DNA from: a virus
IMG/VR virus record: IMGVR_UViG_3300021437_000047
Coordinates: 1 to 40,381 of that record
DNA length: 40,381 bases
Direction: 5' to 3' (one strand)
Under the pieces are notes generated by a model. That model saw only the letters and a program-made list of their open reading frames with translations, was not told the DNA's origin and did not search any database. Below, piece after piece: positions 2,280 through 19,488 of this stretch. A program made the translations under genes and the position numbers. Within the stretch, counting starts at the first letter, position 1. Each line of letters opens with the position of its first letter.

Positions 2280-4160
2280 TCAGCAAAGCTCCACAGTGGA
2301 GCCGCCACCCAGCGGCTCGGTGATATCGAGGGGTTCGAAGAACAGGGCGTGCATGATCGCCCAGGCCAGATCGGCGTGGCCGGTGCCGCCGGAACGACTG
2401 GCGACATAGGTCACCTGGGTACCGCCCTTGGTGATTTCCGGGCGGATCGCCATGAAGCTCTGCATCACGTCCAGCCACCCGGCGTCGAATTCCAGACGGC
2501 CGCTGGAAATGACGTTCTTCGCCTTCAGCACCAGCGCGGTCTTGGTCTGGACCGAGTAATTGTAGGCCTCGGCCATAGGGAAGAATTTGCAGACCAGCTG
2601 GTAAACCGCCTTGCCGACGCCGGTGGTGTCGATGCCGATCTTGCGGACATCGTACTTGGCGCACATCGCCTTGATCGCATCGGACTGGCCGGCGAAATCG
2701 AGGCCCTTGAGGCGCTGCTTTTCCAGCACGCGAAACTTGCCGCCGATCTTCGATGGCGGCGCCAGGGCGACCAGCGCGGCATCGTCGCCGGTGCCGCTTT
2801 CGCTGGCGTTCGGATCGTAGCCCAGCCAGACCTCGCCCTTGTAGGGGCACGGATCGTAGGGCTGGAAATCGCGCCACACGTCCCAGCTGTCGACGCCGCA
2901 TTTGCGCATCATGGCAAAGGGGAACATCGACTGGCTGTCATCGAGGAAGACGCAGCGGAACAGGTTGTCGAATTCGTCGAGCGAATATTCGAGCTGCAAC
3001 TCTTCCACGTCGACCAGGTCAAAGCCCTTGGCGACGGCATCGAACACTGTGACGATCTGCCGCCAGATGCCATCCGGGCCGAGCACGCCGTTCTTCAGCG
3101 CATCGTGGGTCACGTCGATCGAGACGCGGTCACCCTTGGCCCGGCGCCGGTTGAAGCGATCGCCGCACCACATCGGATAGGCTTCGTGGGCCAGCGTGCT
3201 GGGCGTCGAAAACAGCGTGCGGGTGTAGATCTTGTGCGTCGCCATGGCCGAGGCGACCTTGAACAGCTCCTCGAAGCCGTAGATCCAGAAGCACTCATCG
3301 ATGATCACGTCGCCGTGATAGCCCTGCGCCGTGCGGTAATTGGTGCCGAGGAATGACAGCTCGACCGGCTCCAGCGCCTGCTCTTCCTCGCCGTCCTCAT
3401 TTTCGTCGCCGCCGCCGCGCTGGATGACGATCGGGTCACCCTTCAGCGTCACGTCGCAGACCCGCTGCACCCACTGGACGATGTAATTGCGGAAGATGTT
3501 GGCCTGCGCCCGGCTGGCCGAAAGGAAGATCTGGTTCTTGCCATCTTCCAGCGCCACCAGCAGCCGCTCGCGGGCGAAGTACCAGGTCGCGCCGATCTGG
3601 CGGCTCTTGATGATCAGCCGGGTGCGCAGGCTGGTGCTCGATCGCCAGTCGGTCTGGTGCGCGAACAGGCTTTCCTCGAAATCGGCGCGCAGCTTTTCGA
3701 CCATCGCCGCGGTGATGCGGTTCTTGGCCTTTTCCTTCTTCTCCGCCGTGGCCTTGCCAGCCTTCGATCGGTTCGGATTGAGATCGGCCTCGTTGCCGCT
3801 GCCCAGGTATTTCCGCCGCCGGTCGCAGCGCTCCAGCTGGCGGCCGATCATGTCGATTTCCTTGAAATCGTGGCCGCTCTTCTTTTCCTTGCCGACCAGG
3901 GCGATGTAGCGGGCCGTCACCGCATCCTCGGCGCGCTCCAGCGGGCTGGCCTGATCCCACTTGCCGCGCACCTTCCAGCTGGCGACGGTCGAATAGGGCA
4001 GCGCCAGCTCCTCGGCGATCTGGGTCAGCGACCAGCCTTGCCAGTACAGCGAGCGGGCGCGCATCCGCTCTCCGGCGACGCGCGGCAGGCACGTCGCCCC
4101 CTGCGCTTCGGGCGCATCGCTGCCGGTGTCTTCCGGTTCGTCTGGGTCTGCATCGAGCAT
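2280..4160 (-). CDS. P: terminase large subunit, ATPase (P2 gpP family)
   Basis: The 626-residue motor cuts at cos and pumps DNA into the prohead. An HTH lies at residues about 44-63 (SLTQIAEELALPYSTVASWK). The Walker A-like segment KSRQIGAT is at 185-192 and the Walker B VIIDE at 285-289. The C-terminal nuclease domain shows GYDPNASESG, GIDTTGVGK and HADLAWAIMHA. An acidic insert (GDENEDGEEE) at about 251-260 precedes Walker B. P2 gpP is about 590 residues. The ATG has no clear Shine-Dalgarno and lies 57 bp from the centre of the late operator at 4206-4228. Confidence 0.95.
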   Translation of the reverse strand: MLDADPDEPEDTGSDAPEAQGATCLPRVAGERMRARSLYWQGWSLTQIAEELALPYSTVASWKVRGKWDQASPLERAEDAVTARYIALVGKEKKSGHDFKEIDMIGRQLERCDRRRKYLGSGNEADLNPNRSKAGKATAEKKEKAKNRITAAMVEKLRADFEESLFAHQTDWRSSTSLRTRLIIKSRQIGATWYFARERLLVALEDGKNQIFLSASRAQANIFRNYIVQWVQRVCDVTLKGDPIVIQRGGGDENEDGEEEQALEPVELSFLGTNYRTAQGYHGDVIIDECFWIYGFEELFKVASAMATHKIYTRTLFSTPSTLAHEAYPMWCGDRFNRRRAKGDRVSIDVTHDALKNGVLGPDGIWRQIVTVFDAVAKGFDLVDVEELQLEYSLDEFDNLFRCVFLDDSQSMFPFAMMRKCGVDSWDVWRDFQPYDPCPYKGEVWLGYDPNASESGTGDDAALVALAPPSKIGGKFRVLEKQRLKGLDFAGQSDAIKAMCAKYDVRKIGIDTTGVGKAVYQLVCKFFPMAEAYNYSVQTKTALVLKAKNVISSGRLEFDAGWLDVMQSFMAIRPEITKGGTQVTYVASRSGGTGHADLAWAIMHALFFEPLDITEPLGGGSTVELC

Positions 4161-4205
4161 TGCCGCAGGCTATGGACCCTCGCCGCCGCTGCCTAAGCCC
4201 CGCCC

Positions 4206-4228
4206 GTTGTAAGCCGGCACGATACAAC
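4206..4228. promoter_or_regulatory. late operator 1, Ogr-type dyad between P and O
   Basis: The dyad GTTGTA-N11-TACAAC sits in the divergent P/O intergenic region. P2 Ogr and P4 Delta bind a TGT-N12-ACA dyad centred near -55 of late promoters; here the spacing is TGT-N13-ACA. Near-identical copies lie at 18866-18888 and 14058-14080, also upstream of late operons. The centre (4217) is 57 bp from the P start codon and 118 bp from the O start codon. Confidence 0.72.
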
Positions 4229-4334
4229 GCGCCCGCGTTGCCAATTGCCGGCCCGTCCCGTCCTTTCCCGATCGTCAGTCGACCCTCTGCACCGCCCGGC
4301 GGGATGACGTACCAGGATCAGCACGGAGCAAATC

Positions 4335-5228
4335 ATGCCCAAGACCCGTTTTTTCCGCGTTGCCGTCGAAGGCGCAACCATCGATGGCCGCACGCTTGAT
4401 GCCAAGACGCTCCAGGAGATGGCCGATACCTACAACCCGGCCACCTACGGCGCACGGGTCAACCTCGAACACATCCGCGGCGTGACGCCCGATGGCCCGT
4501 TCCAGGCCTACGGCGATGTCCTCGCCGTCAAGACCGAGACCATCGAACTGCCTATCGGCGGCAAGACCGAAAAGCGCCTGGCGCTCTTCGCCGAGCTGGA
4601 TGCCTTCGATCCGCTGATCGCGATGAACAAGAAGCGCCAGAAGGTCTATTCCTCGATCGAGATCCAGCCCAACTTCGCGAACACCGGCAAGGCCTATCTC
4701 GCTGGCCTCGCCGTCACCGACAGCCCGGCCTCGCTCGGCACCGAAATGCTGCAGTTCCGCACCAAGATGGGCGCGGACAAGGCCGCATCGCCGCTCGCCC
4801 TCGATCCCACCCACCTGTTCACCGCCCCGGTTGAGACCGAGATCGAAATGGTTGTCGAAGCCCCGGCCGCCAGTGCCGAGGCCGGCGCCTTCGCCGCGAT
4901 CAAGGCCTTCTTCGACAAGTTCTCCGGCGTGGCGCCGCTGGCCGCTCCGGCTCCGGCCGCACCGGCTGCTCCGGCGATTGCCGAACCGGCTCCCGGCGCT
5001 GCTGCCCCGGCCGTGGGCGATCAGGCCTCCTTCGCCGCGCTCGCCGCGATGATGGGCCAGTTCACCAGCACGGTGCAGGCCTTCGTCACCAAGTCCGAGA
5101 CCGACGCCGCTGCCCTGCGCAGTGAAATGGCCGCGCTCAAGACCTCGATCGACAACACCCCGGCCGCCGGCTTCACCCAGCGCCCTGCTGCCACCGGCGG
5201 AGAAATCGTCGCCCGCACCGACTGCTGA
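4335..5228 (+). CDS. O: capsid scaffold and maturation protease (P2 gpO family)
   Basis: The 297-residue protein should act as a self-cleaving serine protease and internal scaffold during prohead assembly. Candidate catalytic residues match the P2 gpO triad in order and spacing: D17, H46 (NLEHIRG) and S106 or S107 (KVYSSIEI). After residue about 190 comes an Ala/Pro-rich linker and then a helical tail, which fits the scaffold part. GGAG lies 6 nt before the ATG, so unlike its divergent neighbour P this gene has a normal leader. Confidence 0.92.
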   Translation: MPKTRFFRVAVEGATIDGRTLDAKTLQEMADTYNPATYGARVNLEHIRGVTPDGPFQAYGDVLAVKTETIELPIGGKTEKRLALFAELDAFDPLIAMNKKRQKVYSSIEIQPNFANTGKAYLAGLAVTDSPASLGTEMLQFRTKMGADKAASPLALDPTHLFTAPVETEIEMVVEAPAASAEAGAFAAIKAFFDKFSGVAPLAAPAPAAPAAPAIAEPAPGAAAPAVGDQASFAALAAMMGQFTSTVQAFVTKSETDAAALRSEMAALKTSIDNTPAAGFTQRPAATGGEIVARTDC

Positions 5229-5295
5229 TCCTGCCTGACCCCGCCCCATCGTCCGCCTGCCCTGATTTCAGTTTCCGTCTCTAAGGACACCTCCG

Positions 5296-6426
5296 ATGCG
5301 CAACGAAACCCGTATCCTCTTCAACGCCTACGTCAGCCGGATCGCGCTCCTGAACGGCGTTTCTGATGCCACTTCCAAGTTCTCGGTCGATCCGGTTGTC
5401 GAGCAGCGCCTCGAACAGAAGATGACCGAATCGTCGGAGTTTCTCCAGGCGATCAACGTCACTGGCGTCGTCGATCAGACGGCGCAGACGCTTGGCCTCG
5501 GCACCACGCGCACCATGGCCGGTCGTACCGACACCTCGGGTGGCACCAAGCGCAACCCGGGGGATCCCACCGGAAATTCCGAGACCAACACCTATTTGTG
5601 CCTCAAGACGGACTTCGACTGGTCGCGCCGTTATGCCCTGATGGATGCATGGCGCCACAAGCCCGACTTTGAGCTGCTGCTGCGCGATGCCATCGTGAAG
5701 CAGCAGGCGCTCGATCGCATCATGATCGGCTTCAACGGCACTTCGGCTGCCGCCACCACTGATCGCACCGCCAACCCGCTGCTGCAGGACGTGAACATTG
5801 GCTGGCTGGAAAAGATCCGCACCCACGCCCCGGCGCAGGTGTTCGATGACGGCAACCTGACCGTTAAGACCAATGGCACCAACAATGCCGCGCTCAAGGC
5901 GATCTACATCAAGCCCGGCGTGGAACTGTTCGACGCCAATGCGGCCTACAACGCCACTGGCGGTTCGGCCCATGCGGCTGCCGATTACAGCTCGCTCGAC
6001 GCCCTGGTGCTGGATGCCAAGCGGATGCTGCCGGAATGGCATCGCGGCAACACCAAGCTGGTGGTCGTGGTTGGCCACGATCTGGTCGATGACAAGTATT
6101 TCACCATCGCCCAGCAGACCGGCGCCACTGCGACGGAAGTGGAAGCCACCGACCGCATCCTGCGCTCGGACAAGCAGATCGGCGGCCTGCCCGCGGTGCG
6201 CGTGTCGTTCTTCCCGTCCGATGCCCTGCTGATCACCACGCTCGACAACCTCTCTATCTACTATCAGGAAGGCACCCGCCGCCGCTACCTGAAGGATGAG
6301 CCGGAACTTGACCGGGTCGCCAACTATGAGAGCGTCAACGAAGCCTACGTCGTCGAAGATTACGGCCTTGTGGCCCTGGTCGAGAATGTCGTCATCGGCG
6401 CCGCGCCGGCCCGCCCGGCACCGTAA
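5296..6426 (+). CDS. N: major capsid protein (P2 gpN family)
   Basis: This 376-residue protein is the HK97-fold shell subunit; P2 gpN has 357 residues. Family features include the N-terminal MRNETRILFNAYVSRIALLN, the FDWSRRYALMDAWRHKPDF segment, the LMDAWRHK-to-DRIMIGFNGTSAA stretch and a C-terminal VENVVIG strand. It follows O by 67 bp and is followed by a strong hairpin at 6448-6471. P2 gpN is trimmed by gpO at its N-terminus; the same is inferred here. Confidence 0.95.
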   Translation: MRNETRILFNAYVSRIALLNGVSDATSKFSVDPVVEQRLEQKMTESSEFLQAINVTGVVDQTAQTLGLGTTRTMAGRTDTSGGTKRNPGDPTGNSETNTYLCLKTDFDWSRRYALMDAWRHKPDFELLLRDAIVKQQALDRIMIGFNGTSAAATTDRTANPLLQDVNIGWLEKIRTHAPAQVFDDGNLTVKTNGTNNAALKAIYIKPGVELFDANAAYNATGGSAHAAADYSSLDALVLDAKRMLPEWHRGNTKLVVVVGHDLVDDKYFTIAQQTGATATEVEATDRILRSDKQIGGLPAVRVSFFPSDALLITTLDNLSIYYQEGTRRRYLKDEPELDRVANYESVNEAYVVEDYGLVALVENVVIGAAPARPAP

Positions 6427-6447
6427 GCCGACTGCCAATCCGAAAGA

Positions 6448-6471
6448 GTGGGGGGCTGATCGGCCCCCCAC
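6448..6471 (+). other. GC-rich intercistronic hairpin after N
   Basis: GTGGGGGGC pairs perfectly with GCCCCCCAC across a 6-nt loop in the 75-bp N-M gap. There is no T run, so it is more likely an mRNA-stabilising or partial-termination element than a full terminator. Similar hairpins follow FI and FII. Confidence 0.55.
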
Positions 6472-6501
6472 CTTGATAACCCGCCAATCAGGATATCAGC
6501 C

Positions 6502-7239
6502 ATGGTCTACAGCCCCGCCCTTGCCCATCGCCAGCGCAAGCTCGCCGCCAGCCTCACCGGCACTGCCGCCCCCGCAAAGGGCGCCGCGCCCATGCCGGAG
6601 ACCGGCGCCGTCGCCGGCGAATATGCCAATCTGCTGATGGCCCTCGGGCAGGACCTGCGCCGGCTCCACGATATCCAGTCGGTCGAAAAGAAGATCGAGA
6701 CCAAGCGCGGCATGATTGCCGCCTATCTGCCGTGGATCGAAGGCGCGCTGGAATCCGATGCCGGCACCCAGGATGAGATCGTCTCGACCATGCTGGTCTG
6801 GGCCATCGACATCGCCGACTGGGCGCTCGCCCTGCGCCTCGCCGCCTACGTTCTCGAGCATGGCATCGCCCTGCCCGAACGTTACAAGCGCCAGCCCGCC
6901 GTGCTGGTGGCCGAGGAAATGGCCGAAGCCGGCCTCGGCAAGACCCCGAACATCCCGCTCGAATCGCTGACCGAGGTTGCCTCGCTCACCGCCGCTGCCG
7001 ACATGCCCGATCAGGTCCGCGCCAAGCTGGCCAAGGCCACCGGCATCGCGCTGAAGGCCAAGGCCGACGCATTCGACCCCACCGCCGAGAGCGCCGTCGC
7101 CGGCGGCAAGTCCGCCCTGCTCGACGCCGCCCTCGCCCAGCTGACCCGCGCGCTCGATCTCGACAAGACCTGCGGTGTCAAGAAGATCATCGAAGGCCTT
7201 GAACGCGAGCGGAAAAAGCTGGCGGAAGAGAAGCCTTAA
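6502..7239 (+). CDS. M: terminase small subunit (P2 gpM family)
   Basis: The 245-residue protein is the DNA-recognition subunit that partners the P ATPase at cos; P2 gpM has 247 residues. Recognisable family segments are SPALAHRQRKLAA at the N-terminus, IETKRGMIAAYLPWIEGAL in the middle, and DWALALRLAAYVLEHG. AGGA precedes the ATG. Its place between N and L is as in P2. Confidence 0.92.
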   Translation: MVYSPALAHRQRKLAASLTGTAAPAKGAAPMPETGAVAGEYANLLMALGQDLRRLHDIQSVEKKIETKRGMIAAYLPWIEGALESDAGTQDEIVSTMLVWAIDIADWALALRLAAYVLEHGIALPERYKRQPAVLVAEEMAEAGLGKTPNIPLESLTEVASLTAAADMPDQVRAKLAKATGIALKAKADAFDPTAESAVAGGKSALLDAALAQLTRALDLDKTCGVKKIIEGLERERKKLAEEKP

Positions 7240-7334
7240 TAGAGCTGCGCCACCCGCGCCGGGGGGCGGGAATGGACCGGAGCCGCAAGCGAAGGCCCTG
7301 AACCTCACCCCCCACATTTTGAGGAGCCGGTTTG

Positions 7335-7811
7335 ATGTCATCGCTGATCGCCGTGCCGCCCGCGCCCCAGTCGCCGGAAAACACGGTTGTCGCGGCAGAT
7401 GGCTGGTATCCCGAGATCGACTGCAACGAGACCCGCAACGTCCTGCGCCTGGGCGACGTGATCACCCACGATCGCCTGGTCGAGGCCCTGCGCGGCGGCA
7501 TGCTCGCCATCTCCGGTGAACTGCGCGACTGGCGGCAGGTGCAGGAAGCCGCCGGCAAGACCTCGCTCGACGATGTCGCCCCGGAAGAATCGGTCGATGG
7601 CCTCACCCGCCTGCGCCTGCTCTGGATCCGCGCCGTGCGCTATGCCGCCGCTGCCGAGCTGGCCGAAACCCACCGCGACATCACGGCCACCACCGAAGGC
7701 CAGATCCGCGCCGACGCCCAGGTGCAGACCGCCGCCGATTTCCGCCGCCAGATGACCTGGGCCGTGCGCGACATCCTCGGCACAAGCCGCACTGCGGTGG
7801 AGCTGATCTGA
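7335..7811 (+). CDS. L: head completion/stabilisation protein (P2 gpL family)
   Basis: This 158-residue protein seals the filled head at the portal connector. The family signature DGWYPEIDCNETRNVLRLG is near the N-terminus and an all-helical RLRLLWIRAVRYAAAAELAE region follows. GAGGAG lies 8 nt before the ATG; the TTG one codon upstream is not needed. Its stop overlaps the start of X (TGATG). Confidence 0.9.
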   Translation: MSSLIAVPPAPQSPENTVVAADGWYPEIDCNETRNVLRLGDVITHDRLVEALRGGMLAISGELRDWRQVQEAAGKTSLDDVAPEESVDGLTRLRLLWIRAVRYAAAAELAETHRDITATTEGQIRADAQVQTAADFRRQMTWAVRDILGTSRTAVELI

Positions 7812-8020
7812 TGCAGGTTTCCGCCCTCCAGGGCGACACGCTCGATCTGATCTGCTGGCGCCACCTTGGCGCCACGGCGGAGGTCACCGAGCAGGCCCTC
7901 GAACTCAACCGCGATCTCGCTGCCCTTGGCCCGGTGCTGCCCGAAGGCCGCATCGTGATCCTGCCCGACGCCGCCCCCGCCGCCTCTGCCACCCGCGAAA
8001 CTGTGAACCTGTGGGATTGA
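7811..8020 (+). CDS. X: tail protein X (LysM-like)
   Basis: The 69-residue protein matches P2 gpX (67 residues), a small LysM-like tail component. The pattern runs GDTLDLICWRHLG, then the LELNRDLAALGPVLPEG loop, then the strand RIVILPD. It is translationally coupled to L. Confidence 0.88.
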   Translation: MQVSALQGDTLDLICWRHLGATAEVTEQALELNRDLAALGPVLPEGRIVILPDAAPAASATRETVNLWD

Positions 8021-8022
8021 CG

Positions 8023-8430
8023 ATGGAAGATCCGAACGACTGGCGTGCATTCTTCTTCTGGTGGGCAGCGGCGCTGTTCTCCAGCACCGTCGTCGTCGTC
8101 GCGCGGCTTGGCCTGAAACTTTACGGCGAGGCTGCCGATCCGCCGGCCGACCCCATCATGGCCAGCCACTGGGAACGCCGCCGCCGCTGGCTGGCGATCT
8201 CGGAAATCTCCGCGCTGCCGGCCTTTGCGACCGTTTCTGTCGTGCTGGTCAGCTATTATCACCTCGATCCGGTGGCCGGCGTGCTGATCGCCATGGCCCA
8301 GGGCTTCATCGGCTTCCCCCTGCTGCTCGATGGCGCCGCCTGGCTGTTCCGCCGCCGCATCGGCATGGTCGCCGCCGCTCCGCCCGCACCACCGGGGAGC
8401 GACGCCCAGGGAGGGCCTTCCGGTGCTTGA
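8023..8430 (+). CDS. membrane protein, candidate holin
   Basis: This 135-residue protein has three likely membrane segments: about 11-33 (FFFWWAAALFSSTVVVVARL), 58-78 (ALPAFATVSVVLVSYY) and 86-112 (AGVLIAMAQGFIGFPLLLDG). It occupies the place of the P2 holin gene Y, between X and R. The location and topology suggest a holin that would time release of the amidase at 13583-14014, but no family motif was recognised. Confidence 0.6.
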   Translation: MEDPNDWRAFFFWWAAALFSSTVVVVARLGLKLYGEAADPPADPIMASHWERRRRWLAISEISALPAFATVSVVLVSYYHLDPVAGVLIAMAQGFIGFPLLLDGAAWLFRRRIGMVAAAPPAPPGSDAQGGPSGA

Positions 8431-8569
8431 GAAAATCATCATCGGCGCAACCCTGATCAGCCTGCTGGTGACGGTCCCGGCGATGGCGAAGGCCGGCTAT
8501 CACGCCTTCAAGATCGAGTGGAACCGCCAGCACGGCCGCCCCTCCGAACCTGATCGGCCCGCCCCATGA
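8423..8569 (+). CDS. small single-span membrane protein
   Basis: A GTG start, preceded by a strong GGGAGGG, overlaps the end of the upstream gene. The 48-residue product begins with a hydrophobic helix (IIIGATLISLLVTVPAM) and ends in a charged tail. It lies where P2 carries its lysis accessory genes, so a holin partner, antiholin or pinholin role is plausible but unproven. Its stop overlaps the start of R. Confidence 0.55.
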   Translation: MLEKIIIGATLISLLVTVPAMAKAGYHAFKIEWNRQHGRPSEPDRPAP

Positions 8570-9051
8570 ACAAGCACGATTCCCTCCGCGCGGCCATCGT
8601 CGCACTGGCGCCCGATCTCGCCCGCGATCCCGACAACCTGCGGATGTGGATCGACAAGGGCAAGGTGCGCTGCACCCAGACCCCATCGCTCAATTTCTTC
8701 TACGAGTACAAGCTCAGCGTGCTGCTGGTCGATTTCACCGGCCACCCCTCGGTGGTCTGCCTTGCGATCAATGAATGGCTGCGCGCCAACCAGCCCGATC
8801 TGCTGCGCCCCGATCGCGAAGCCGGCTACACCTTCGAGGCCGACATCGTCGACAGCCGCACCTTCGATCTGCTGTTCGAGCTGGATCTGACCGAGACTGC
8901 CATCGTCACCCCACGCCAGGGCGGCGGGTGGAACATCGATCACCCGGGTGAGCCGGTGCCGCTGCTGCCCGACGATCTGCCGCTGGCGGGCGGAGCAACA
9001 CTGCAACAGGGCTGGGTGCCCGGCGCGGAGCTGGTGCCCGATCCGCAATAG
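8566..9051 (+). CDS. R: tail completion protein R
   Basis: The 161-residue protein matches P2 gpR (155 residues), which acts at the head-proximal end of the tail. Features are the FFYEYKLSVLLVDFTGHP segment, the LAINEWLRANQPDLL helix and the FEADIVDSRTFDLLFELDL strands. Start overlaps the preceding stop; S follows 12 bp later, the same pairing as in P2. Confidence 0.9.
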   Translation: MNKHDSLRAAIVALAPDLARDPDNLRMWIDKGKVRCTQTPSLNFFYEYKLSVLLVDFTGHPSVVCLAINEWLRANQPDLLRPDREAGYTFEADIVDSRTFDLLFELDLTETAIVTPRQGGGWNIDHPGEPVPLLPDDLPLAGGATLQQGWVPGAELVPDPQ

Positions 9052-9063
9052 GGAACGGCTGGC

Positions 9064-9531
9064 ATGAGCAGCAACGAACTGGACGCCATAGAGCCGTGGA
9101 TTGCCGGCTATCTGGCCAAGCTGGAACCGGGCGAGCGCGTCCGCGTTGCCCGCAAGATCGGCGCCAACCTGCGCAAATCGAACGCCGCGCGCATCGGCCA
9201 GAACATCGAGCCGGACGGCGCGCCGATGGAACCGAGAAAGCCGAAAAAGGAGCGCAAGGGCCGCCTGCGCAAACGCCGCGGCAAGATGTTTCCCCGCACC
9301 CGCCTCATCCGCAACATGCGCGTCCGCCCCGATCAGGACGGCGTGACGGTCGATTTCCGCCAGCCGGTGGCCGGCACGGCAGCGGTCCACCACTTCGGCC
9401 TGGTCGACAAGGTCGATCGCCGGATCCCGAACTCGATCTCCGTCCGCTACCCCCGCCGCCGCCTGCTGGGCTTCAGCCCGGAAGACCGGGAGCTGATCAT
9501 GGATACCGTGGTGGAGTGGATCGGGAAGTAG
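9064..9531 (+). CDS. S: tail completion protein S (phage virion morphogenesis family)
   Basis: This 155-residue protein belongs to the gpS/Mu gpG family of tail terminator-like proteins. A basic middle (KPKKERKGRLRKRRGKMF) is followed by the VTVDFRQPVAGTAAVHHFG motif and the C-terminal LLGFSPEDRELIMDTV. It closes the rightward O-to-S operon, 15 bp from the convergent end of the fibre operon. I see no clear terminator in that gap. Confidence 0.9.
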   Translation: MSSNELDAIEPWIAGYLAKLEPGERVRVARKIGANLRKSNAARIGQNIEPDGAPMEPRKPKKERKGRLRKRRGKMFPRTRLIRNMRVRPDQDGVTVDFRQPVAGTAAVHHFGLVDKVDRRIPNSISVRYPRRRLLGFSPEDRELIMDTVVEWIGK

Positions 9532-9546
9532 GGCTCCAGGCCGCTC

Positions 9547-10058: not shown

Positions 10059-11005
10059 CAGAACGCCCCTATGATGATGAAGCCATCGCCGCCCTTGCCG
10101 CCAGCGCCGCCAGTGACACCAGCGCCGCCACCGGAACCACCGCAGCCCCACGCGCCATCGGCCCCCTTGCCACCAGTCCCAGACGCACCGGAAGAACCGC
10201 CTCCAGTGCCGCCACCGAAAAAGAGCGGGCCGCCGCGTGCAAGGGCGATATCAATGTGCTTGCCGAAGTTCTGGCCCAATAGCCCGGCACCGCCACCGGC
10301 CGCCCCGCCAGCGAGTGCTGTAAAGGGCGCTTGGGCGGTAGCGCCGCCGCCTGCAGAGTCAGTGTTGGAAGTACCGACACCAGCGCCTCCGGCTCCGCCT
10401 GTGACCCAACCGTTAGCAGCGTTTTGCGTCGCAGCTCCGCCCGGCCCGCCTGTATGAGCACCACCTGCCCCGCCGCCGCTTCCTTGGGCCACGGAAGTGA
10501 TGAACTGCCTATAAATACCCGTAGCAACGGATGCGCCCGATCCGCCAGCTGCTCCCCCACCGGAGGAAGTTCCCGCCGCACCACCGGGGCCGCAGCCGCT
10601 GCCGCCCCCGCTAGAGCTTAGCCAGTTCACGCCGCTTAGCGAGGTATCAAAACCAATTCCGAAAGTCCCCGAGCTCGTAGTGCCGCCAGCACTATCTGCT
10701 GCGCCGCCCGCGCCACCCCTGCCGGGGTTCAAATACAGCGTTTCAGGCAATAGAAACGCCGGGATCAGAAATGTCTTTGATGCTCCGGCACCGCCACCGG
10801 CACCACCCCCGCGAGTAGTACCCGCCGCACCGGAAGCCCCACCGGCCCCACCACCACCGGGGTATTGCTGGAGAATCCAGACGAACGAACACCCGGCCGG
10901 CTTTTGCCAAGCCGACCAGAGGGCTTGGGTTGGTCCTGAGGAGCGCGGCAAGATCACCTGAACGTTTGTGATCCCATCGGTTGGGAAGCCTACCGATGGA
11001 AACAT
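10058..11005 (-). CDS. glycine-rich tail-tip adhesin candidate
   Basis: The 315-residue protein has a non-repetitive N-terminus (about 1-48, ending FVWILQQY). Then come many Gly/Ala/Ser runs such as GGGGAGGASGAAG, interrupted by short hydrophobic stretches (TFLIPAFLLPETLYLNP, IYRQFITSVAQ). It ends GGDGFIIIGAF, a typical terminus of glycine-rich phage fibre proteins. In T4-like phage S16 such runs pack as polyglycine-II helices and the loops bind the receptor. By analogy this is a receptor-binding candidate. Confidence 0.72.
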   Translation of the reverse strand: MFPSVGFPTDGITNVQVILPRSSGPTQALWSAWQKPAGCSFVWILQQYPGGGGAGGASGAAGTTRGGGAGGGAGASKTFLIPAFLLPETLYLNPGRGGAGGAADSAGGTTSSGTFGIGFDTSLSGVNWLSSSGGGSGCGPGGAAGTSSGGGAAGGSGASVATGIYRQFITSVAQGSGGGAGGAHTGGPGGAATQNAANGWVTGGAGGAGVGTSNTDSAGGGATAQAPFTALAGGAAGGGAGLLGQNFGKHIDIALARGGPLFFGGGTGGGSSGASGTGGKGADGAWGCGGSGGGAGVTGGAGGKGGDGFIIIGAF

Positions 11006-11445: not shown

Positions 11446-11456
11446 GATGAGCTACC

Positions 11457-11807: not shown

Positions 11808-11808
11808 G

Positions 11809-12366: not shown

Positions 12367-12375
12367 GGGGTGCTC

Positions 12376-12606: not shown

Positions 12607-12607
12607 G

Positions 12608-12955
12608 TCAGCCGCTCACGCTCTGGTCGATGATGATGAAGCAGGGGTCGGTGATCTCCACCACTTCACCATCCAGTTCGAACTTGGCATCGGCGCAATA
12701 CTGGCCGGGGTGCAGACCGGCGGTGATCTCTGCCCCGACGATCAGCGACCAGCGCGCCGGTTCGTCACCAGTGGCCGGTTCGAACTCGACCTCGAACTCT
12801 GCCGCCACGGCCACTTCCGGCCCCGGAACCACCTGCCCGTCGCACTTCTTCAGCACCGCCGAAACGGTATAGCCGCTCGGATCGCCTGACAGCACGCGCC
12901 GGGCAATCACGATCGGCTCGCCGCGCTGGCGGCGGAAGATGGCGCGGACGGTCAT
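12608..12955 (-). CDS. beta-rich baseplate/fibre adaptor candidate
   Basis: The 115-residue protein begins TVRAIFRRQRGEPIVIARRV and continues as alternating strands (GYTVSAVLKKCDG, ARWSLIVGAEITAGLHPGQY). The layout resembles the N-terminal adaptor domain of siphophage upper-baseplate proteins, but the similarity is loose. Position just upstream of the collagen-like and fibre genes supports an adaptor role. Confidence 0.55.
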   Translation of the reverse strand: MTVRAIFRRQRGEPIVIARRVLSGDPSGYTVSAVLKKCDGQVVPGPEVAVAAEFEVEFEPATGDEPARWSLIVGAEITAGLHPGQYCADAKFELDGEVVEITDPCFIIIDQSVSG

Positions 12956-13173
12956 CGATCGGCAGACGGCCAGGCAGCCTGCGCCAGCTTGGCCTGCAGG
13001 CGGGCGTGGCCTTCGTCATTGTCGGCCTGGATATCGGCGAGCGCGGCCTTGGCCGTCTCCTGGTTGGCCGGGTGCAGCGCGGCGGAGACCTCGTTCCACC
13101 AGCCGACGAATTCCTCGGTGCGGGCGACCGCCGGGCCGACAACCGGCAGCAGCTTGAGCAGGTTCTCGAACAT
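12952..13173 (-). CDS. small helical protein, unknown function
   Basis: The 73-residue protein reads as two amphipathic helices (FENLLKLLPVVGPAVARTEEF and NQETAKAALADIQAD). The ATG at 13173 overlaps the stop of the lipoprotein gene; the GTG codon before it is an alternative start. It sits between lysis and fibre genes; no function is assigned. Confidence 0.6.
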   Translation of the reverse strand: MFENLLKLLPVVGPAVARTEEFVGWWNEVSAALHPANQETAKAALADIQADNDEGHARLQAKLAQAAWPSADR

Positions 13174-13568
13174 CACTTCGCCCCCTTCACGGCCATCAGA
13201 TCGGAAATCGCCCCGCGCGCCTCGGTCAGCGCCTGCCGGTAACTGTCGGCATTGCCGGCGGCATAGGCCTGCCGCACCGTCGCGACGGCGAGGAAGGCGC
13301 GGTTGTCCAGCTCGGCCGCGCGGCGGGCGGTCTCGCCCTTGATCAACCCGGCATCGACGCCCGTCTCCATCGCCAGTCGCGCCGCCTTGTAGGCCAGCTC
13401 GACACCCAGCGCGGCCTGCTCATCCAGCACGGTGCGATCGGCAAAGCTGGCCGGCGCGGAGGCGTGGACGGCATCGGCGGCGCTGGCCCCGGCATCGAGC
13501 ACCTGACTGGCCTTGCAGCCGGAAAGGGCGAGGACGGCAGCGGCGAAGAGAAGCATGTTTCTGATCAT
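13173..13568 (-). CDS. phage lipoprotein, possible outer-membrane lysis component
   Basis: The 131-residue product has a lipoprotein signal: MIRNM, a hydrophobic core and the lipobox LALSGC with Cys near residue 18. The mature part is Ala-rich and helical. GGAGG lies 4 nt before the chosen ATG; an ATG at 13586 would spoil the signal peptide. It directly follows the amidase gene, so an o-spanin-like role is possible, although it is longer than usual Rz1 proteins. Surface exclusion is the other option. Confidence 0.68.
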   Translation of the reverse strand: MIRNMLLFAAAVLALSGCKASQVLDAGASAADAVHASAPASFADRTVLDEQAALGVELAYKAARLAMETGVDAGLIKGETARRAAELDNRAFLAVATVRQAYAAGNADSYRQALTEARGAISDLMAVKGAK

Positions 13569-13582
13569 GGGGCCTCCGGGGG

Positions 13583-14014
13583 TCATGCGGGCATGCCGGC
13601 TGCGATCCAGCCGGAAACGTCGAAACTGGGGCAGGCCTTGGCCACGCCGGGCCAATCGCGATGGCCGCGCACGATCAGGCCGGGGTGCGCCGCCTGATAA
13701 TCGCGGATGATCTTCGCCAGGGCGGCCTTCTGCGCCGGGGTGCGGGTGTCCTTCGGCGCCTTGTTGTCAGCCGTGACCCCGCCGACGTAGCAGACGCCGA
13801 CGTTGCCGGTGTTGTGCCCGCCGGTATGCGCGCCCTTGGCGCTATCGGGGAGAGTGCGGACGGCGGTGCCATCCAGCTCGATCACCCAGTGATAGGACAC
13901 CTGGCCGAACCGGCCGATATCCCACTGGCTGATCGTTTCCGCCGGAACGGGACGCCCTTCCGGGGTCGCGGCGCAGTGAACGGTGAGGAACTGGATGGGG
14001 CCAAGCGGTTGCAT
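13583..14014 (-). CDS. endolysin, T7-lysozyme-type N-acetylmuramoyl-L-alanine amidase
   Basis: The 143-residue enzyme cleaves the amide bond between muramic acid and peptide in peptidoglycan. Zinc and catalytic residues match T7 lysozyme in spacing: H13 (TVHCAATPEG), Y41, H118 (GHRDWPG), K126 and C128 (KACPSFDV). No signal peptide is seen, so export through a holin is expected. The ATG at 14014 has no clear Shine-Dalgarno and lies 55 bp from late operator 3, while an extension to 14041 is less likely. Confidence 0.9.
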   Translation of the reverse strand: MQPLGPIQFLTVHCAATPEGRPVPAETISQWDIGRFGQVSYHWVIELDGTAVRTLPDSAKGAHTGGHNTGNVGVCYVGGVTADNKAPKDTRTPAQKAALAKIIRDYQAAHPGLIVRGHRDWPGVAKACPSFDVSGWIAAGMPA

Positions 14015-14057
14015 GGCCAGACCATGCCGCCCCCCGCGCACGGTTCAATGAAGCCAC

Positions 14058-14080
14058 GTTGTTGCCGGGCGTGTTACAAC
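14058..14080 (-). promoter_or_regulatory. late operator 3, Ogr-type dyad upstream of the amidase
   Basis: Read on the minus strand this is CCC-GTTGTA-N11-AACAAC, one mismatch from the dyad found at 4206 and 18866. It lies in the 78-bp gap between the propeller-like protein and the amidase. Its centre is 55 bp from the amidase ATG, so it should let the lysis/second-fibre operon start its own late transcript. Confidence 0.65.
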
Positions 14081-14092
14081 GGGAGGGGCGGC

Positions 14093-15256
14093 TCAGGCGG
14101 GGAACAGGAACGCCAGATCGGGCTGGAAAGCATACTCGTCGTGCCCGCTGACCGTCACCGAAGCGGTATCGGTTGTCGCCATCGCGGCATACCCGCCAAG
14201 ACCGTTCACCCAATACGAAAAATAAGGATAGCCCCAGGTCGCAGCAGACGGCGGCTCTGCTGAAAGTGACGAAATCAACACGGTCGAATCGAGCGCATGC
14301 GTCGCAAGGTTCACCCGGTGCAGTTTGGTCGTGAAGAATGTGCCTGGATCGTATTCGTCGATCACCATCTGGTTCGCAGCCGTATCGATCCGGTCGAAAT
14401 ACCAGTTCGATGTGCCGATCAGCGCCGTGACATCGACCGCCGCATCGAGCGTGAACGTGCTGGCATCGATCACCAGCATGTGGGTGCCATCCCAGCCCAT
14501 GGCGAACTTGCCGCCGTGATAATCCATGTAGTCAGCTGGGGTGTTGAAACTTCCTGCCGCCAGCGATGGCAGCCCGGTGACATGGTGCACCGTCCCGCCT
14601 GCAATTTCCCAGAAGTAGAAATCGGAAATCGTGCCCCCCGATACGGGCGGTGCCACTCCGAAAACTGCGCCGCCCGGCCCCTGAATGAATTGTTCGGTCT
14701 TCAGATAGGCAGCACTGACAACTGGCGGAACAATTGCCGTCACCACTCCGGTCACGGTGCTGCGGGAATAGACTGGATTGGTCGCACCACCTGCTGTTCG
14801 GTAAAACAGTGTCTGCACCCCGCCCACATCGAACAGCTTCACCAGTTCCGGCGGCGATCCCGATGCCATTGGGATATCGCCGGCTGTGCCGAGCGTCGTC
14901 ACCACTCCAGCCCGCGTTACCTTGCGCGTGGTATCGTCGGAAGTGGCGTAGCCGTAGATCGCGCCGCTGTTGTCGATCGGTGTGATGCTGTCGAACTGGG
15001 TTTCCGATGATATGCCAACGGCCGGTGCAGTCTGCTCGATGATGTTGTAGCTGCCGCGTACCGTGTTGAAGGTCAAAAACCGTCCGGTGTTATTGGCATA
15101 AGGTCCGGTCAGAACGCACCAAGAGCCATTCGGGCTTTCGATTGCGAGATCATAACCCGGGCCATCAGCAAAGACCGTGCCGCCGAGCAAGCCGGTGATG
15201 ATATCGGCATCCGGAAGGCCAAGGCTGCCAAGGTGCTGATTGACCAGAAAGGTCAT
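14093..15256 (-). CDS. large beta-repeat fibre/tail protein, unknown fold
   Basis: The 387-residue protein starts MTFLVNQHLGSLGLPDADII and consists of repeated short beta blades, each with patterns such as GAIYGYATSDD, GAVFGVAPPVSGG and GGKFAMGWDGTHMLVIDAS. This suggests a beta-propeller or similar repeat fold. It lies downstream of the H fibre and chaperone genes and overlaps the next gene by 4 bp. A host-recognition or virion decoration role is inferred from position. Confidence 0.65.
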   Translation of the reverse strand: MTFLVNQHLGSLGLPDADIITGLLGGTVFADGPGYDLAIESPNGSWCVLTGPYANNTGRFLTFNTVRGSYNIIEQTAPAVGISSETQFDSITPIDNSGAIYGYATSDDTTRKVTRAGVVTTLGTAGDIPMASGSPPELVKLFDVGGVQTLFYRTAGGATNPVYSRSTVTGVVTAIVPPVVSAAYLKTEQFIQGPGGAVFGVAPPVSGGTISDFYFWEIAGGTVHHVTGLPSLAAGSFNTPADYMDYHGGKFAMGWDGTHMLVIDASTFTLDAAVDVTALIGTSNWYFDRIDTAANQMVIDEYDPGTFFTTKLHRVNLATHALDSTVLISSLSAEPPSAATWGYPYFSYWVNGLGGYAAMATTDTASVTVSGHDEYAFQPDLAFLFPA

Positions 15257-15738
15257 GCTGGGGTCACCTCAATCGTCGCGATCAGGCCGCGCGCGCCAGT
15301 GCCGGCAGCGATGATCGAGAAGGTCAGCACCTGCCCCTTCGTCGCTGCCGTGGTCGAAAGCACCGCCGCCGTTCCGGTCAGGCTGGTATCGTCACCATCG
15401 GCAATCGACGGCATGGTCGAAAAGATCGTGGCGCCAGACAGCAGCGCATCGACCGTCACTGGTCCGCTGCTCGACCGCGCGGCAGCAAGGCCGATGAACA
15501 CCTCGCCGATGGTGCAGTCGAACGGCACGATCCACCCGGCAGAGAGTGCCCCGGTAGCCAGATCAGTGACCATGTCGGAAAGCGCAAACTGGAAGGTCTG
15601 GGCCGGATTGATAGCGCTGGCCACATAGGCGGCCAGATCATCGGTCCCTGCCTGCTTCGTCACCCCTCCCTGATCGAGAGCGAAGATTTCAGAGCCGGTC
15701 AGCCCACCGGCAATGGGAAGTTCGGAAATCCGGGGCAT
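15253..15738 (-). CDS. fibre protein with virion-attachment N-terminus
   Basis: The N-terminus ISELPIAGGLTGSEIFALDQ and the following GGVTKQAGTDDLAAYV form a pattern common at the start of phage fibre and spike proteins, where it anchors them to the tail. The remaining part of the 161 residues is beta-rich. It is coupled to both neighbours by short overlaps. Confidence 0.7.
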   Translation of the reverse strand: MPRISELPIAGGLTGSEIFALDQGGVTKQAGTDDLAAYVASAINPAQTFQFALSDMVTDLATGALSAGWIVPFDCTIGEVFIGLAAARSSSGPVTVDALLSGATIFSTMPSIADGDDTSLTGTAAVLSTTAATKGQVLTFSIIAAGTGARGLIATIEVTPA

Positions 15739-16214
15739 CAGCGGGCGCTCCAGTGGCTGTCATCGGAAGGATCGAAGGCGGCGAGGTCGGCGGCGCTCAT
15801 GGCCGGCAGCGCGGCTTCCAGCTGGTTGCTGCGCGCCCGGATGGCATCGATCTTCGTCCGGCGGTTGATCGCGCTCACCGCGTCGATGGTCGAGCTGCCG
15901 CCGTGGGCGATCTGCAGCGCGTGCAGGGCGATCTGGGCGTTGTCGTTCGACTGCTGCTCAAGGCTGGCCAGGGCAAGGATGCGGCGGCGGGCTTCCATCC
16001 GGATCACGGCCCCGGCGCTTTCCGGGGTATGGGCGAACGGCGTCGCCACCGGCTTGCCGGTCTTGGCGTGGGTGGAGATCCGCGCGCCCTTGCCCTGCGC
16101 CGCCATCAGCTGGGCGTGCTTGGCCTCGCTGACCTTGGCCGCGCCCTTCGGAATTTCCATCGAGCCATCATCGGGGATGAAGCCGCCGCGTTCCGAGCAC
16201 CAGAAATAGTCCAT
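15738..16214 (-). CDS. tail fibre assembly chaperone candidate (position of P2 gpG)
   Basis: The 158-residue protein directly follows the H fibre gene, as G follows H in P2. It starts MDYFWCSERGGFIPDD, has a middle AHTPESAGAVIRMEARRRIL, and ends DLAAFDPSDDSHWSAR, a helical C-terminus like that of fibre assembly proteins. The chosen ATG lies just after the H stop; a frame extension to 16274 overlaps H and is rejected. Confidence 0.7.
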   Translation of the reverse strand: MDYFWCSERGGFIPDDGSMEIPKGAAKVSEAKHAQLMAAQGKGARISTHAKTGKPVATPFAHTPESAGAVIRMEARRRILALASLEQQSNDNAQIALHALQIAHGGSSTIDAVSAINRRTKIDAIRARSNQLEAALPAMSAADLAAFDPSDDSHWSAR

Positions 16215-16215
16215 G

Positions 16216-17280
16216 TCAGTAGCCCCATGCTTCAAAGGTGTGATCGAACAGATCGACGGCGCTGAAGCGGACATCGAACCCGGATGTCGTCTGGCTGCCC
16301 GTCACGGCGAAGGCCCCGGTCGGCGCGATCGGCGCTGCCGGGCCGCTGCACACCTCCACCAGGTCGCAGGCGTTCGGGAACAGGCGCGGGAAAGTGACGG
16401 TCTGCGGCGATGATCCACTGCCGGTAAACGTGCCCCACTGGCGCAGCCGCATGCCGCTGCTGGTCGGCACCCATTCCCAGCCCGAAGCGCCGCCGCGCGA
16501 TCCGCCCATGCCGGTGAACGAAGTGAGGGTCAGCGCCTTGCCGTTGTCTGCACTGCCCGCCAGCAGCGTGGTGCCGCTGGCCGCGACCACGTCGATCGTG
16601 CGGTCCGCCGTCAGATCGCCGCCGCCGCTGGCAAGGCCGGTGCCGGTGATCGTGCGCGTCATCGGCACCTTGGTTGCCAGCGCCGTCGCCACAGAGCTTT
16701 CCAGCGAAGCCAGCGCCGCCGTGATCGTGGAAATCAGCGCGGCCAGCCGGTGCCGCAGGGTCTTGGGCGTCACCACGGTGGTGGCATCGTCCTCGCCATC
16801 GGTCTCGGCATCGACGCGGGCCTGTGTCGCCAGCTTGACGATGCCGCGTACCGTCTCGGTCGCCGGCGGTTCATCGAAGATCGGATCACCGAAGGAAATC
16901 AGCGCGGAAATATCGGCGTTGAAGGCGATGTCGAAAGACAGCAGCGCGAAAGCCGCCGCCGCCTTGGTCATGATCGGATCGGCATCCGAAGAGTAGCAGG
17001 CGAACAGCGTGCCATCGTCCAGGAACAGGCCGAAGCCGGTGGCGCTCCACACGTCAGAGGTCGTGTCATAGGCGCTCATGTGGGTGATGTTCGCCGCCAC
17101 CTCGCCCCCGGCCACTGCCGCGATGCGCTTGAATTCGCCGGGCAGCGTGGTCAGCGACGCATCGGCGGTGAACGGGGTGTCGCTCAGCGCCACTTCGGCG
17201 ATGGTGGCCGTGTCGCTGCCGGAAAGGCCCTCGACGGCGGCAAGCCCGGCATCGGTCAGACGAAGGACGAAAGCGGTCAT
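16216..17280 (-). CDS. H: tail fibre protein H
   Basis: The 354-residue protein has the P2-H type N-terminal domain that binds the baseplate (VLRLTDAGLAAVEGL to FGLFLDDGTLFACY). A linker VRGIVKLATQARVDAETDG and VVTPKTLRHRL follows. The C-terminal receptor domain contains MRLRQWGTFTGSGSSPQTVT and FPRLFPNACDLV, a motif widespread in fibre tips. P2 H is longer (669 residues), so the shaft is short here. It overlaps I by 4 bp. Confidence 0.9.
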   Translation of the reverse strand: MTAFVLRLTDAGLAAVEGLSGSDTATIAEVALSDTPFTADASLTTLPGEFKRIAAVAGGEVAANITHMSAYDTTSDVWSATGFGLFLDDGTLFACYSSDADPIMTKAAAAFALLSFDIAFNADISALISFGDPIFDEPPATETVRGIVKLATQARVDAETDGEDDATTVVTPKTLRHRLAALISTITAALASLESSVATALATKVPMTRTITGTGLASGGGDLTADRTIDVVAASGTTLLAGSADNGKALTLTSFTGMGGSRGGASGWEWVPTSSGMRLRQWGTFTGSGSSPQTVTFPRLFPNACDLVEVCSGPAAPIAPTGAFAVTGSQTTSGFDVRFSAVDLFDHTFEAWGY

Positions 17281-17915
17281 GTTTCAGTCTCCAGCGGATC
17301 CCCCGCGAGGTTGATCAGGATCGGTGCGCCATCCTCGGTCAGCAGGACGTGCGACCAGTCTGCCGGGGCATCGTGCACGGCGGTGAAATCCATTCGCAGC
17401 ATGGTGCCGACGATCGAGCCGCCGGCCATCCACAGCCGCGCCTGCGCTTCCAGCACCTGGACGAAATCGAAGTGGCTGCGCAGCGGCTTGGTGGCGTTGA
17501 CATCGCGGATGATCGCCGCTGCCGTCTCTGCCGTGAGGAAATCGGCGCCGATCTCTGCCGGGGCGCGCACCTCGAAGGTGTGCGGCGTGCGGCGCGGCGT
17601 CGCCTGCCACCACTCGGTGATCTGCAGCAGCGGGTGAAAGCGCGCGAGCACTTCCTCGACCGCCCCGCGCGTCCCCTTGCGGCGGTGGAACGGGATCGCC
17701 CCGGCCACGGCGGTGCGCTTTTGCGCCACGCTCCAGTCCGGGTCCCAGTAGGTGATCGCCAGCCCCCAGCCGAGGAACGGCAGCACTTCCGGCGGGCATG
17801 TGGCCGGGTCCCACAGCGTGCCGACGGCGGCAAGATCGATATCCGCCAGCATCGCCGCCTCGATCGCGCGCTCGCCCGCTGTCGAATTCGGCGGCAGCAG
17901 CGAGGGGCGGGTCAC
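17277..17915 (-). CDS. I: tail/baseplate protein I
   Basis: The 212-residue protein belongs to the P2 gpI family (176 residues) that links baseplate wedge to fibre. The signature is PPEVLPFLGWGLAITYWDPD followed by KRTAVAGAIPFHRRKGTRGA and VEEVLARF. It overlaps J and H at its ends, keeping the J-I-H order of P2, though the operon runs leftward. Confidence 0.93.
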   Translation of the reverse strand: MTRPSLLPPNSTAGERAIEAAMLADIDLAAVGTLWDPATCPPEVLPFLGWGLAITYWDPDWSVAQKRTAVAGAIPFHRRKGTRGAVEEVLARFHPLLQITEWWQATPRRTPHTFEVRAPAEIGADFLTAETAAAIIRDVNATKPLRSHFDFVQVLEAQARLWMAGGSIVGTMLRMDFTAVHDAPADWSHVLLTEDGAPILINLAGDPLETET

Positions 17916-18820
17916 AGCTCGGTCCCGGCCACGGTCACGGCGACGGCAGTCGGGTGGCCGATCTGCGCCTGGGTGATGACGATATCGGAGGCCGGGTGGA
18001 TCAGCTCGACGCGGGCGACATTGCCGACGTGCAGCGCGGCAGTGATCGCCGACCGAACCACGTCACGGCCAAGCCGCCGCGCCTTCGCCAGATAGGCGGC
18101 CAGCGATTCCTGCGCGGTCTGGAGGATCAGCTGCTGGTCAGGCCCGGCGAAGACGTAGAGGTGCGCCTCGATCGTGTAATCGATCAGCGCCGCCGGGTTC
18201 ACCGTCACTTCGTCGGTCAGCGGGCGCACCGCGCTGTCCAGCCGGTCGCGCACGGCATCGAGCACTTCCGAACCGGGCACGCCGTCACCGCTGACCGAAA
18301 GCACCGTCACCACCACTTCACCGGGATCGGGGCTTTCCGCCGTGGCATCGGCCACGTCGCCGTGGGCAGAGCGGGCGTGATAGACGTAGGCCAGCGCCGG
18401 GCCGGCCACCGAGAAGGCATGCGGGGCAAGCTGGATGCGCTGCCGGAAGGCGGTGTCGCTTTCCATCACGGCGGGCGTGCCGGTTTCGGGTACCGCCGGG
18501 GTCACCACCATCCGCTCCACCTCGAACAGCGCCGCCAGCTGGTCCAGCCGGGCGCCGGTGGCAAAGGCCAGCAGCATGCCGCGCGCCGCATCGTTGAACG
18601 CCTGGGCAAGCACCAGCTCGTCGTAGGAATCGGATTCCAGCAGCTTGATCGCCGGATCGCTTTCGACCAGGGCGTCAAAGGCCGGGTGCAGCGTGATCAG
18701 CCGCGAAAGCTTGGCCGCAAGCCGCGCCTCGAAGCTCGGCTGCTCGACGATGTCCGGCGGCGGCAGGCCCGACAGGTCGATAAGCGTCGATGAGGCGGTG
18801 GAGGTAGGGCTGTCCGGCAT
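17912..18820 (-). CDS. J: baseplate assembly protein J
   Basis: The 302-residue protein has the same length as P2 gpJ and is a baseplate wedge component. Typical segments are TLIDLSGLPPPDIVEQPSFE at the N-terminus, GARLDQLAALFEVERMV, DTAFRQRIQLAPHAFSVAGP and RSAHGDVADATAESPDPGEV. The ATG at 18820 lacks a clear Shine-Dalgarno and lies 57 bp from the centre of late operator 2. The preceding in-frame extension to 19105 is shadow sequence of gene V. Confidence 0.94.
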   Translation of the reverse strand: MPDSPTSTASSTLIDLSGLPPPDIVEQPSFEARLAAKLSRLITLHPAFDALVESDPAIKLLESDSYDELVLAQAFNDAARGMLLAFATGARLDQLAALFEVERMVVTPAVPETGTPAVMESDTAFRQRIQLAPHAFSVAGPALAYVYHARSAHGDVADATAESPDPGEVVVTVLSVSGDGVPGSEVLDAVRDRLDSAVRPLTDEVTVNPAALIDYTIEAHLYVFAGPDQQLILQTAQESLAAYLAKARRLGRDVVRSAITAALHVGNVARVELIHPASDIVITQAQIGHPTAVAVTVAGTEL

Positions 18821-18865
18821 GGCTGCGGTATCTGCCCAGCCAGCGGCAATGTGCCACCCGCGCCC

Positions 18866-18888
18866 GTTGTAAGGCGTGGCGATACAAC
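18866..18888. promoter_or_regulatory. late operator 2, Ogr-type dyad between J and V
   Basis: This copy reads CCC-GTTGTA-N11-TACAAC-G and shares the flanking bases with operator 1. Its centre (18877) is 57 bp from the ATG of J on the left and 57 bp from the ATG of V on the right. One dyad could therefore serve both divergent promoters. Confidence 0.72.
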
Positions 18889-18933
18889 GGCCACCGCTGG
18901 CCCCTTGCCGCCGGGGTGCGCATTGCTCTGGCC

Positions 18934-19488
18934 ATGCGTACTCCCGAAGACATCGAGACCGATCCCGATGGCCTGATCCGCCTTGGCGCCGTGGCGTCGG
19001 TGGATCTGGCGGCTGCGCGCTGCACCGTGAAATTCGACGATGAGACCGAAACCCCGCCGCTGCGCTGGATCGAACCGCGCATGGGCAAGACCCGCTGCTG
19101 GTCACCGCCGAGCGAGGGTGAGCAGGTCGTGCTGCTCTGCCCGGCCGGCGAGCTGGGCGGCGCGGTGGTCCTGCGCGGCCTGGTCTGCGATGCCTTCGCC
19201 GCCCCCGATGACCGCAAGATCGATCTGGTGAAGTTCGAGGACGGCGCGACGATCAGCTACGATGCCGATGCGCACGAACTCTCGATCACCCTGCCCGCCG
19301 GCGCTACCACCCAGCTGGTTTCCGACGGCGGCATCACGATCCCCGGCGACATCACGCTGGAGGGCGATGTCGACATGACCGGCACGCTCACCGCCAGCGG
19401 CGACGTGGTCGCCAGCGGCATCAGCCTCAATTCCCACACCCACGGCAGCGTGCGCTCCGGTTCCGACAGTTCGGGAGGCCCCCAATGA
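18934..19488 (+). CDS. V: baseplate spike protein V
   Basis: The 184-residue protein is the membrane-piercing spike at the tail tip; P2 gpV has 211 residues. An OB-fold N-terminal domain (LGAVASVDLAAARCTVKF, WWSPPSEGEQV-like WSPPSEGEQVVLLCP) leads to a repeat beta-helix (GGITIPGDITLEGDVDMTGT). The C-terminal HTHGSV supplies the HxH iron site of the needle. The start at 18934 fits the operator spacing; an ATG at 18916 gives six more residues. Confidence 0.92.
   Translation: MRTPEDIETDPDGLIRLGAVASVDLAAARCTVKFDDETETPPLRWIEPRMGKTRCWSPPSEGEQVVLLCPAGELGGAVVLRGLVCDAFAAPDDRKIDLVKFEDGATISYDADAHELSITLPAGATTQLVSDGGITIPGDITLEGDVDMTGTLTASGDVVASGISLNSHTHGSVRSGSDSSGGPQ

Follow-up and report, generated by a model that had tools for sequence, protein, structure and literature searches.

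The window analysed here is the whole 40,381-bp stretch of viral DNA held as IMG/VR record IMGVR_UViG_3300021437_000047 (positions 1 to 40,381). Analysis of its proteins with Pfam identified a P2-like (Peduoviridae-type) phage, with matches to terminase P, portal, scaffold O, capsid N, the small terminase, tail proteins R and S, baseplate proteins J, I and V, sheath, integrase and an Ogr/Delta zinc finger. Virion and lysis operons of this phage are preceded by three copies of the Ogr-type dyad GTTGT-N13-ACAAC, one shared by the divergent genes P and O, one lying between J and V, and one in front of an amidase gene (Table 1). Only 0.003 copies are expected per dinucleotide-shuffled window (300 shuffles), and no GTTGT/ACAAC dyad with any other gap from 5 to 20 was found in the window. 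An earlier note on this DNA had placed the dyad centres 57, 55, 57 and 57 bp from the start codons of P, amidase, J and V, and recomputation gave the same centres and distances. All four genes begin with ATG, and these ATGs were the only starts of open reading frames (ORFs) of 50 codons or more located 54 to 61 bp from a full 10/10 dyad. No Shine-Dalgarno (SD) core at usable spacing was found before any of them, which bears out the remark in the same note that a clear ribosome-binding site is lacking. J and V are divergent, with their ATGs 114 bp apart and a single dyad between them.

In the record of phage P2, one activator site serves both pP and pO, whose starts at 3016 and 3127 are each about 55.5 bp from a centre near 3071.5 (our own reading of the record sequence). 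V is annotated to start at 10308, on the A of its own ATG, and the centre of a TTGT-N11-ACAA dyad is 57 bp away. The annotated late starts of P2 lie approximately 55.5 to 58.5 bp from their dyads; therefore, an Ogr dyad 55 to 57 bp from an ATG predicts a transcription start on that ATG. The earlier note had reasoned likewise that Ogr acting near -55 would put the start on the ATG and leave the message leaderless, and this proposal agrees with the P2 sites, the spacing in relatives, the -10 signal and the SD contrast described below. That V of P2 is known to be leaderless was a point absent from that note. Taken from the sequence, it is very likely that the window carries P2-like late promoters, activated by the phage's own Ogr, at which +1 would fall on the ATG and the messages would be leaderless.

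Table 1. Dyads, predicted promoter elements and genes of the late regions of the window
Feature	Position	Strand	Remark
Ogr-type dyad GTTGTAAGCCGGCACGATACAAC	4206..4228 (centre 4217)		common to the divergent promoters of P (left) and O (right)
Ogr-type dyad GTTGTTGCCGGGCGTGTTACAAC	14058..14080 (centre 14069)		amidase promoter
Ogr-type dyad GTTGTAAGGCGTGGCGATACAAC	18866..18888 (centre 18877)		midway between the divergent J and V ATGs
Predicted -10 TAGCCT, P promoter	4167..4172	-	6 nt before P ATG (+1 = 4160); position fits the A/T peaks
Predicted -10 CATGGT, amidase promoter	14021..14026	-	6 nt before ATG; read from the sequence
Predicted -10 GATACC, J promoter	18827..18832	-	read from the sequence
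Predicted -10 ATTGCT, V promoter	18922..18927	+	read from the sequence
SD GGAG of O (contrast gene)	4325..4328	+	other side of the P/O dyad
P, terminase large subunit, 626 aa	2280..4160	-	predicted leaderless head of P-Q operon; codon 33 is an alternative start with an SD
O, capsid scaffold/protease	4335..5228	+	leadered; first gene of the rightward head operon
Amidase_2 endolysin-like gene, 143 aa	13583..14014	-	predicted leaderless; Pfam match from residue 5
J, baseplate protein, 302 aa	17912..18820	-	predicted leaderless; first gene of the leftward J-I-tail fibre operon
V, baseplate spike protein, 184 aa	18934..19488	+	predicted leaderless head of V-W-sheath tail operon
Ogr/Delta zinc-finger activator, 120 aa	28798..29160	+	PF04606, E=9.5e-12; presumed ligand of the three dyads

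Relatives were fetched through capsid N and baseplate J, and P, O, V and J were located in them by tblastn. After removal of near-duplicates, the start of each gene was taken as the first in-frame ATG following a TTGT-N11..14-ACAA dyad. This ATG lay 55 to 61 bp from the dyad in 21/24 P, 14/16 V and 9/11 J genes, the V heads clustering at 55.5 to 57 bp, and in 0/25 O genes, most of which started 75 to 128 bp away. All heads counted begin with ATG, and among the relatives listed there was no case of GTG or TTG as the sole start at 55 to 61 bp. In close relatives (L084, L092, L094, L096), V genes that have no preceding dyad often start with GTG and show no clear SD. The depositors' own starts in Burkholderia phage KS5 place both P and V 56.0 bp from the dyad, O at 94 bp and FI at 78 bp.

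The dyad itself varied among relatives. In one sub-clade (L084, L087, L088, L091, L094, L101 and L005), GGTA-N11-TACC, with GGTG/CACC variants, replaces GTTGT-N13-ACAAC at the same positions, and the ATGs lie 57 to 60 bp (P), 56 to 58 bp (J) and 98 to 124 bp (O) from these half-sites. These observations suggest that the specificity of Ogr may have changed in this sub-clade while the geometry did not. In a set of sphingomonad prophages (L089, L090, L093, L099 and L100), the dyad spacing is N14 rather than N13, and the distance to the ATG is still 55.5 to 57.5 bp.

A search for the dyad, suggested in the earlier note, returned the three window copies, all at late operons; many copies away from late operons were not seen. 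In two host genomes (4.6 to 5.5 Mb), those of Sphingomonas sp. IC081 and Novosphingobium silvae, the N14 form occurred in 3 to 4 copies, two of which in each were true late-operon sites. Scanning these genomes with the N14 dyad only revealed new sites, each 56.5 bp from the ATG of a terminase-like ORF (628 and 620 aa), and O lay on the opposite side at 106.5 and 119.5 bp. Here the dyad was used for a prediction, which was then borne out. An extra N14 dyad near the prophage of Sphingomonas sp. IC081 (position 3661206; L119:2707) has no late gene at 55 to 61 bp and may be a chance occurrence, a host site or a satellite site.

A model-free palindrome profile, which used the longest-ORF start, gave 36 P loci at 54 to 61 bp compared with 5 to 9 in control bands. 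V and J stood out less than P in this profile, owing to variation in the dyad arms and in the start chosen, and we relied instead on the motif-based and dyad-anchored analyses. The strict TTGT/ACAA dyad was not found at the annotated starts of 186, HP1, Smp131, Mannheimia 1127AP1 or a Zymomonas plasmid-prophage, a result that neither supports nor contradicts the proposal. The last of these, from Zymomonas mobilis CP4 (CP006891; L109), is a 36.9-kb circular P2-like element labelled a plasmid, which carries an Ogr gene, a partition ATPase and RelB/YafQ-type toxin-antitoxin genes.

Alignment of operon heads on the ATG (n=48) showed A/T in 62% at -12, 79% at -11 and 58% at -7, against 8 to 23% A/T in the flanks (-17 to -14 and -6 to -1) of this GC-rich DNA. 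With +1 set at the A of the ATG, these peaks coincide with the best-conserved bases of a -10 hexamer that ends 6 nt before the start codon, as expected of a leaderless mRNA. When the heads were aligned on the dyad arm, peaks appeared at arm+35 (35/47, p=4e-14) and arm+39 (29/47, p=7e-9), and on the O side the arm+39 base was likewise present (21/22, p=5e-9), with p-values that are indicative for heads related by descent from which near-duplicates had been removed. The -10-like signal lies at the distance that matches a dyad centred near -55 of the predicted start. Since the signal is found on the P, V and J sides and on the O side alike, the dyad appears to fix promoter geometry in both directions, and only the position of the ATG differs. 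For O in the window, transcription is predicted to start near 4273-4274, which would give a leader of about 60 nt. The amidase hexamer CATGGT is identical to that of V in two sphingomonad prophages (L089 and L093). By eye, the O side of P/O dyads (for example, window positions 4229-4275) also carries a recurrent TTG (GTTG/TTGA) about 10 bp after the dyad and 17 bp before the -10, with a weaker CTGG/TGG counterpart before V and J; this element is a possible -35.

The two kinds of late gene also differed in their SD sequences. SD core four-mers were present in 5/49 operon heads versus 74/88 O genes and 90/92 N genes, and SD duplex energies separated the heads from O and from N (Mann-Whitney p=5e-9 and 3e-13). 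The SD match of the heads was no better than that of shuffled sequence. On the O side the same dyad-anchored -10 is present, but the ATG lies further off, behind an SD.

Some observations weigh against a general leaderless reading. The amidase case rests on one sequence, because no relative was found that pairs the dyad with an amidase gene. The p-values given above overstate independence because the loci are related. A leaderless P is not universal, since P of P2 has a leader of 23 nt. Distances of 58 to 61 bp in some P and J heads permit a leader of 2 to 5 nt, and codon 33 of the window P gene is an in-frame ATG that follows GGAGAGCGG.

The last of these points raises the possibility, for P only, that Met33 is the true start, behind the SD GGAGAGCGG and an mRNA leader of about 96 nt. 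A GGAG lies 5 nt before this ATG; the match to the terminase domain starts at residue 31, and alignments with most relatives start at residue 32. However, an SD-bearing internal start occurs in only 2/29 P heads and is missing from the other 27, and many P proteins have only 12 to 16 residues ahead of the conserved motif, counted from an ATG 55 to 61 bp off the dyad. On these grounds Met1 is favoured and a start at Met33 seems unlikely; P is nevertheless not certain and is the least certain of the four heads because of this SD-bearing internal codon.

The 58- to 61-bp distances in several P and J heads, together with the scatter of P2 start sites from about 55.5 to 58.5 bp, would also be expected if these Ogr promoters started 2 to 6 nt upstream of the ATG, making the messages near-leaderless rather than strictly leaderless. 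This seems quite improbable given that the V heads lie at 55.5 to 57 bp and that the -10 peaks fall exactly at -12, -11 and -7. A leader of 2 to 6 nt would carry no SD, and translation would therefore work in the same way as on a leaderless message. Very improbable, in our view, is the idea that ordinary leadered promoters lie further upstream and that the dyads are terminators or operators for another protein. Dyads can be operators, and nothing more specific speaks for it. V and J are divergent, which would confine both promoters to the 113 bp that separate their ATGs; at P/O and V of known P2-type phages this dyad is the Ogr site; and the dyads have short arms and a non-palindromic centre and are not followed by a T-run. 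Coincidence or a start-picking artefact is scarcely credible: the starts were picked by rule against a background of about 1.4 ATGs per 100 bp, yet an ATG would fall at one of three positions by chance with a probability of about 0.04 per side, the same rule found none in O, and the annotated starts of KS5 and the two dyad-only sites agree. Misassigned starts, terminators and chance were accordingly rejected on conservation in relatives, V/J divergence and dyad structure.

Having weighed these alternatives, we favour Ogr-activated promoters with +1 on the ATG. The window protein presumed to act at the dyads has the zinc-finger pattern C-X2-C-X22-C-X4-C, which is common to the Ogr proteins of Smp131 and P2 (PMC3931495). 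At 120 aa it is larger than P2 Ogr (72 aa), with some 30 additional residues N-terminal to the zinc finger and a long C-terminal part. We infer that this protein would bind the dyad centred at about -56 and recruit host RNA polymerase, which would melt the weak -10 at -12 to -7 and start at +1. In the V, J, amidase and probably P promoters, +1 would be the A of the ATG, so that their mRNAs would have 0 to a few nucleotides of leader and be translated without an SD, presumably through 70S ribosomes that initiate at the 5'-terminal AUG. The symmetric J/V dyad would drive both directions, with V and J both leaderless; the P/O dyad would give a leaderless P on one side and, on the other, O with its leader and GGAG. 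The nearest relatives of J among named genomes belong to Novosphingobium and Sphingomonas, and the host is therefore probably a sphingomonad (Novosphingobium-type).

Leaderless mRNAs in phages are commonly seen as oddities, with lambda and P2 V as the cases. One activator of fixed geometry would instead make transcription of several essential virion operons begin at their start codons. The leaderless V of P2, the principle of the Ogr site and the N13 spacing (RSA1/RSY1) are already known. The extension of predicted leaderless heads to P, J and amidase, recurring in alpha- and betaproteobacterial P2-like phages, seems unreported, as does one dyad that would make two divergent leaderless operons. 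A literature search found no paper joining leaderless mRNA with P2-like late operons, save a general remark on P2 (PMC4633059). Only tentatively do we suggest that in much of the P2-like phages outside enterobacteria the P, V and J heads may be leaderless by design, with O deliberately leadered from the activator site of P. If so, the late mRNAs under one activator would fall into two classes by their mode of translation. Such a division could adjust the ratios of the proteins made, or allow leaderless messages still to be translated when normal initiation is compromised in late infection. P and O, predicted leaderless and leadered from the same dyad, would be a natural matched pair for studying leaderless translation in bacteria that use it frequently. 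For such phages the geometry also offers a rule for correcting starts, namely to seek an ATG 55 to 61 bp from the dyad.

Among known systems, P2 (pP/pO, pV and pF, Ogr-activated) is like the window in having the dyad at about -56, one dyad for divergent P and O, and a V start on the ATG. Leaderless genes in P2 have been acknowledged, citing Christie and Calendar 1985 (PMC4633059), and by experiment the layout is established for one gene only, V of P2. In P2, unlike the window, only V is leaderless, with leaders of 23 nt for P, 40 nt for O and about 24 nt for FI; V and J are in one operon; and the spacing is N11-N12 rather than N13. The earlier note had called the window spacing one base different from that of P2, which stands against the consensus TGT-N12-ACA but not against the P2 V site, TGT-N11-ACA, and N13 was already published for RSA1/RSY1.

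RSA1 and RSY1 share the N13 motif, TGTTGT-N13-ACAACA, described as 'centred around -50 to -90' of start codons (PMC5694545), and KS5 shares the 56-bp distance of P and V; these phages differ from the window in their hosts and operon order. The RSY1 publication does not mention leaderless mRNAs or separate P/V at -56 from O at about -94, and according to its authors there is no sigma-70 promoter at the RSY1 late sites (PMC5694545). Its range of -50 to -90 may reflect P/V at one end and O/FI at the other. Phage 186 resembles the window in having one B site between the divergent p12 and pV promoters, but the genes served by B are leadered and no separate promoter is annotated for the V homologue. 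Late promoters for P, O, J and V have been proposed in Smp131 (PMC3931495).

Leaderless mRNAs elsewhere, in lambda, Tn1721, P2, the Thermus phage YS40 and alphaproteobacteria, have a 5'-end AUG and no SD (PMC4633059, PMC3594737, PMC7566282). In Zymomonas mobilis, a member of the Sphingomonadales, the order of the presumed host, 119/2,675 pairs of transcription start site and gene are leaderless (PMC7566282), and such transcripts are not rare in this order. What would set the window apart from leaderless mRNAs in general is that one phage activator is predicted to yield several leaderless operon heads at once.

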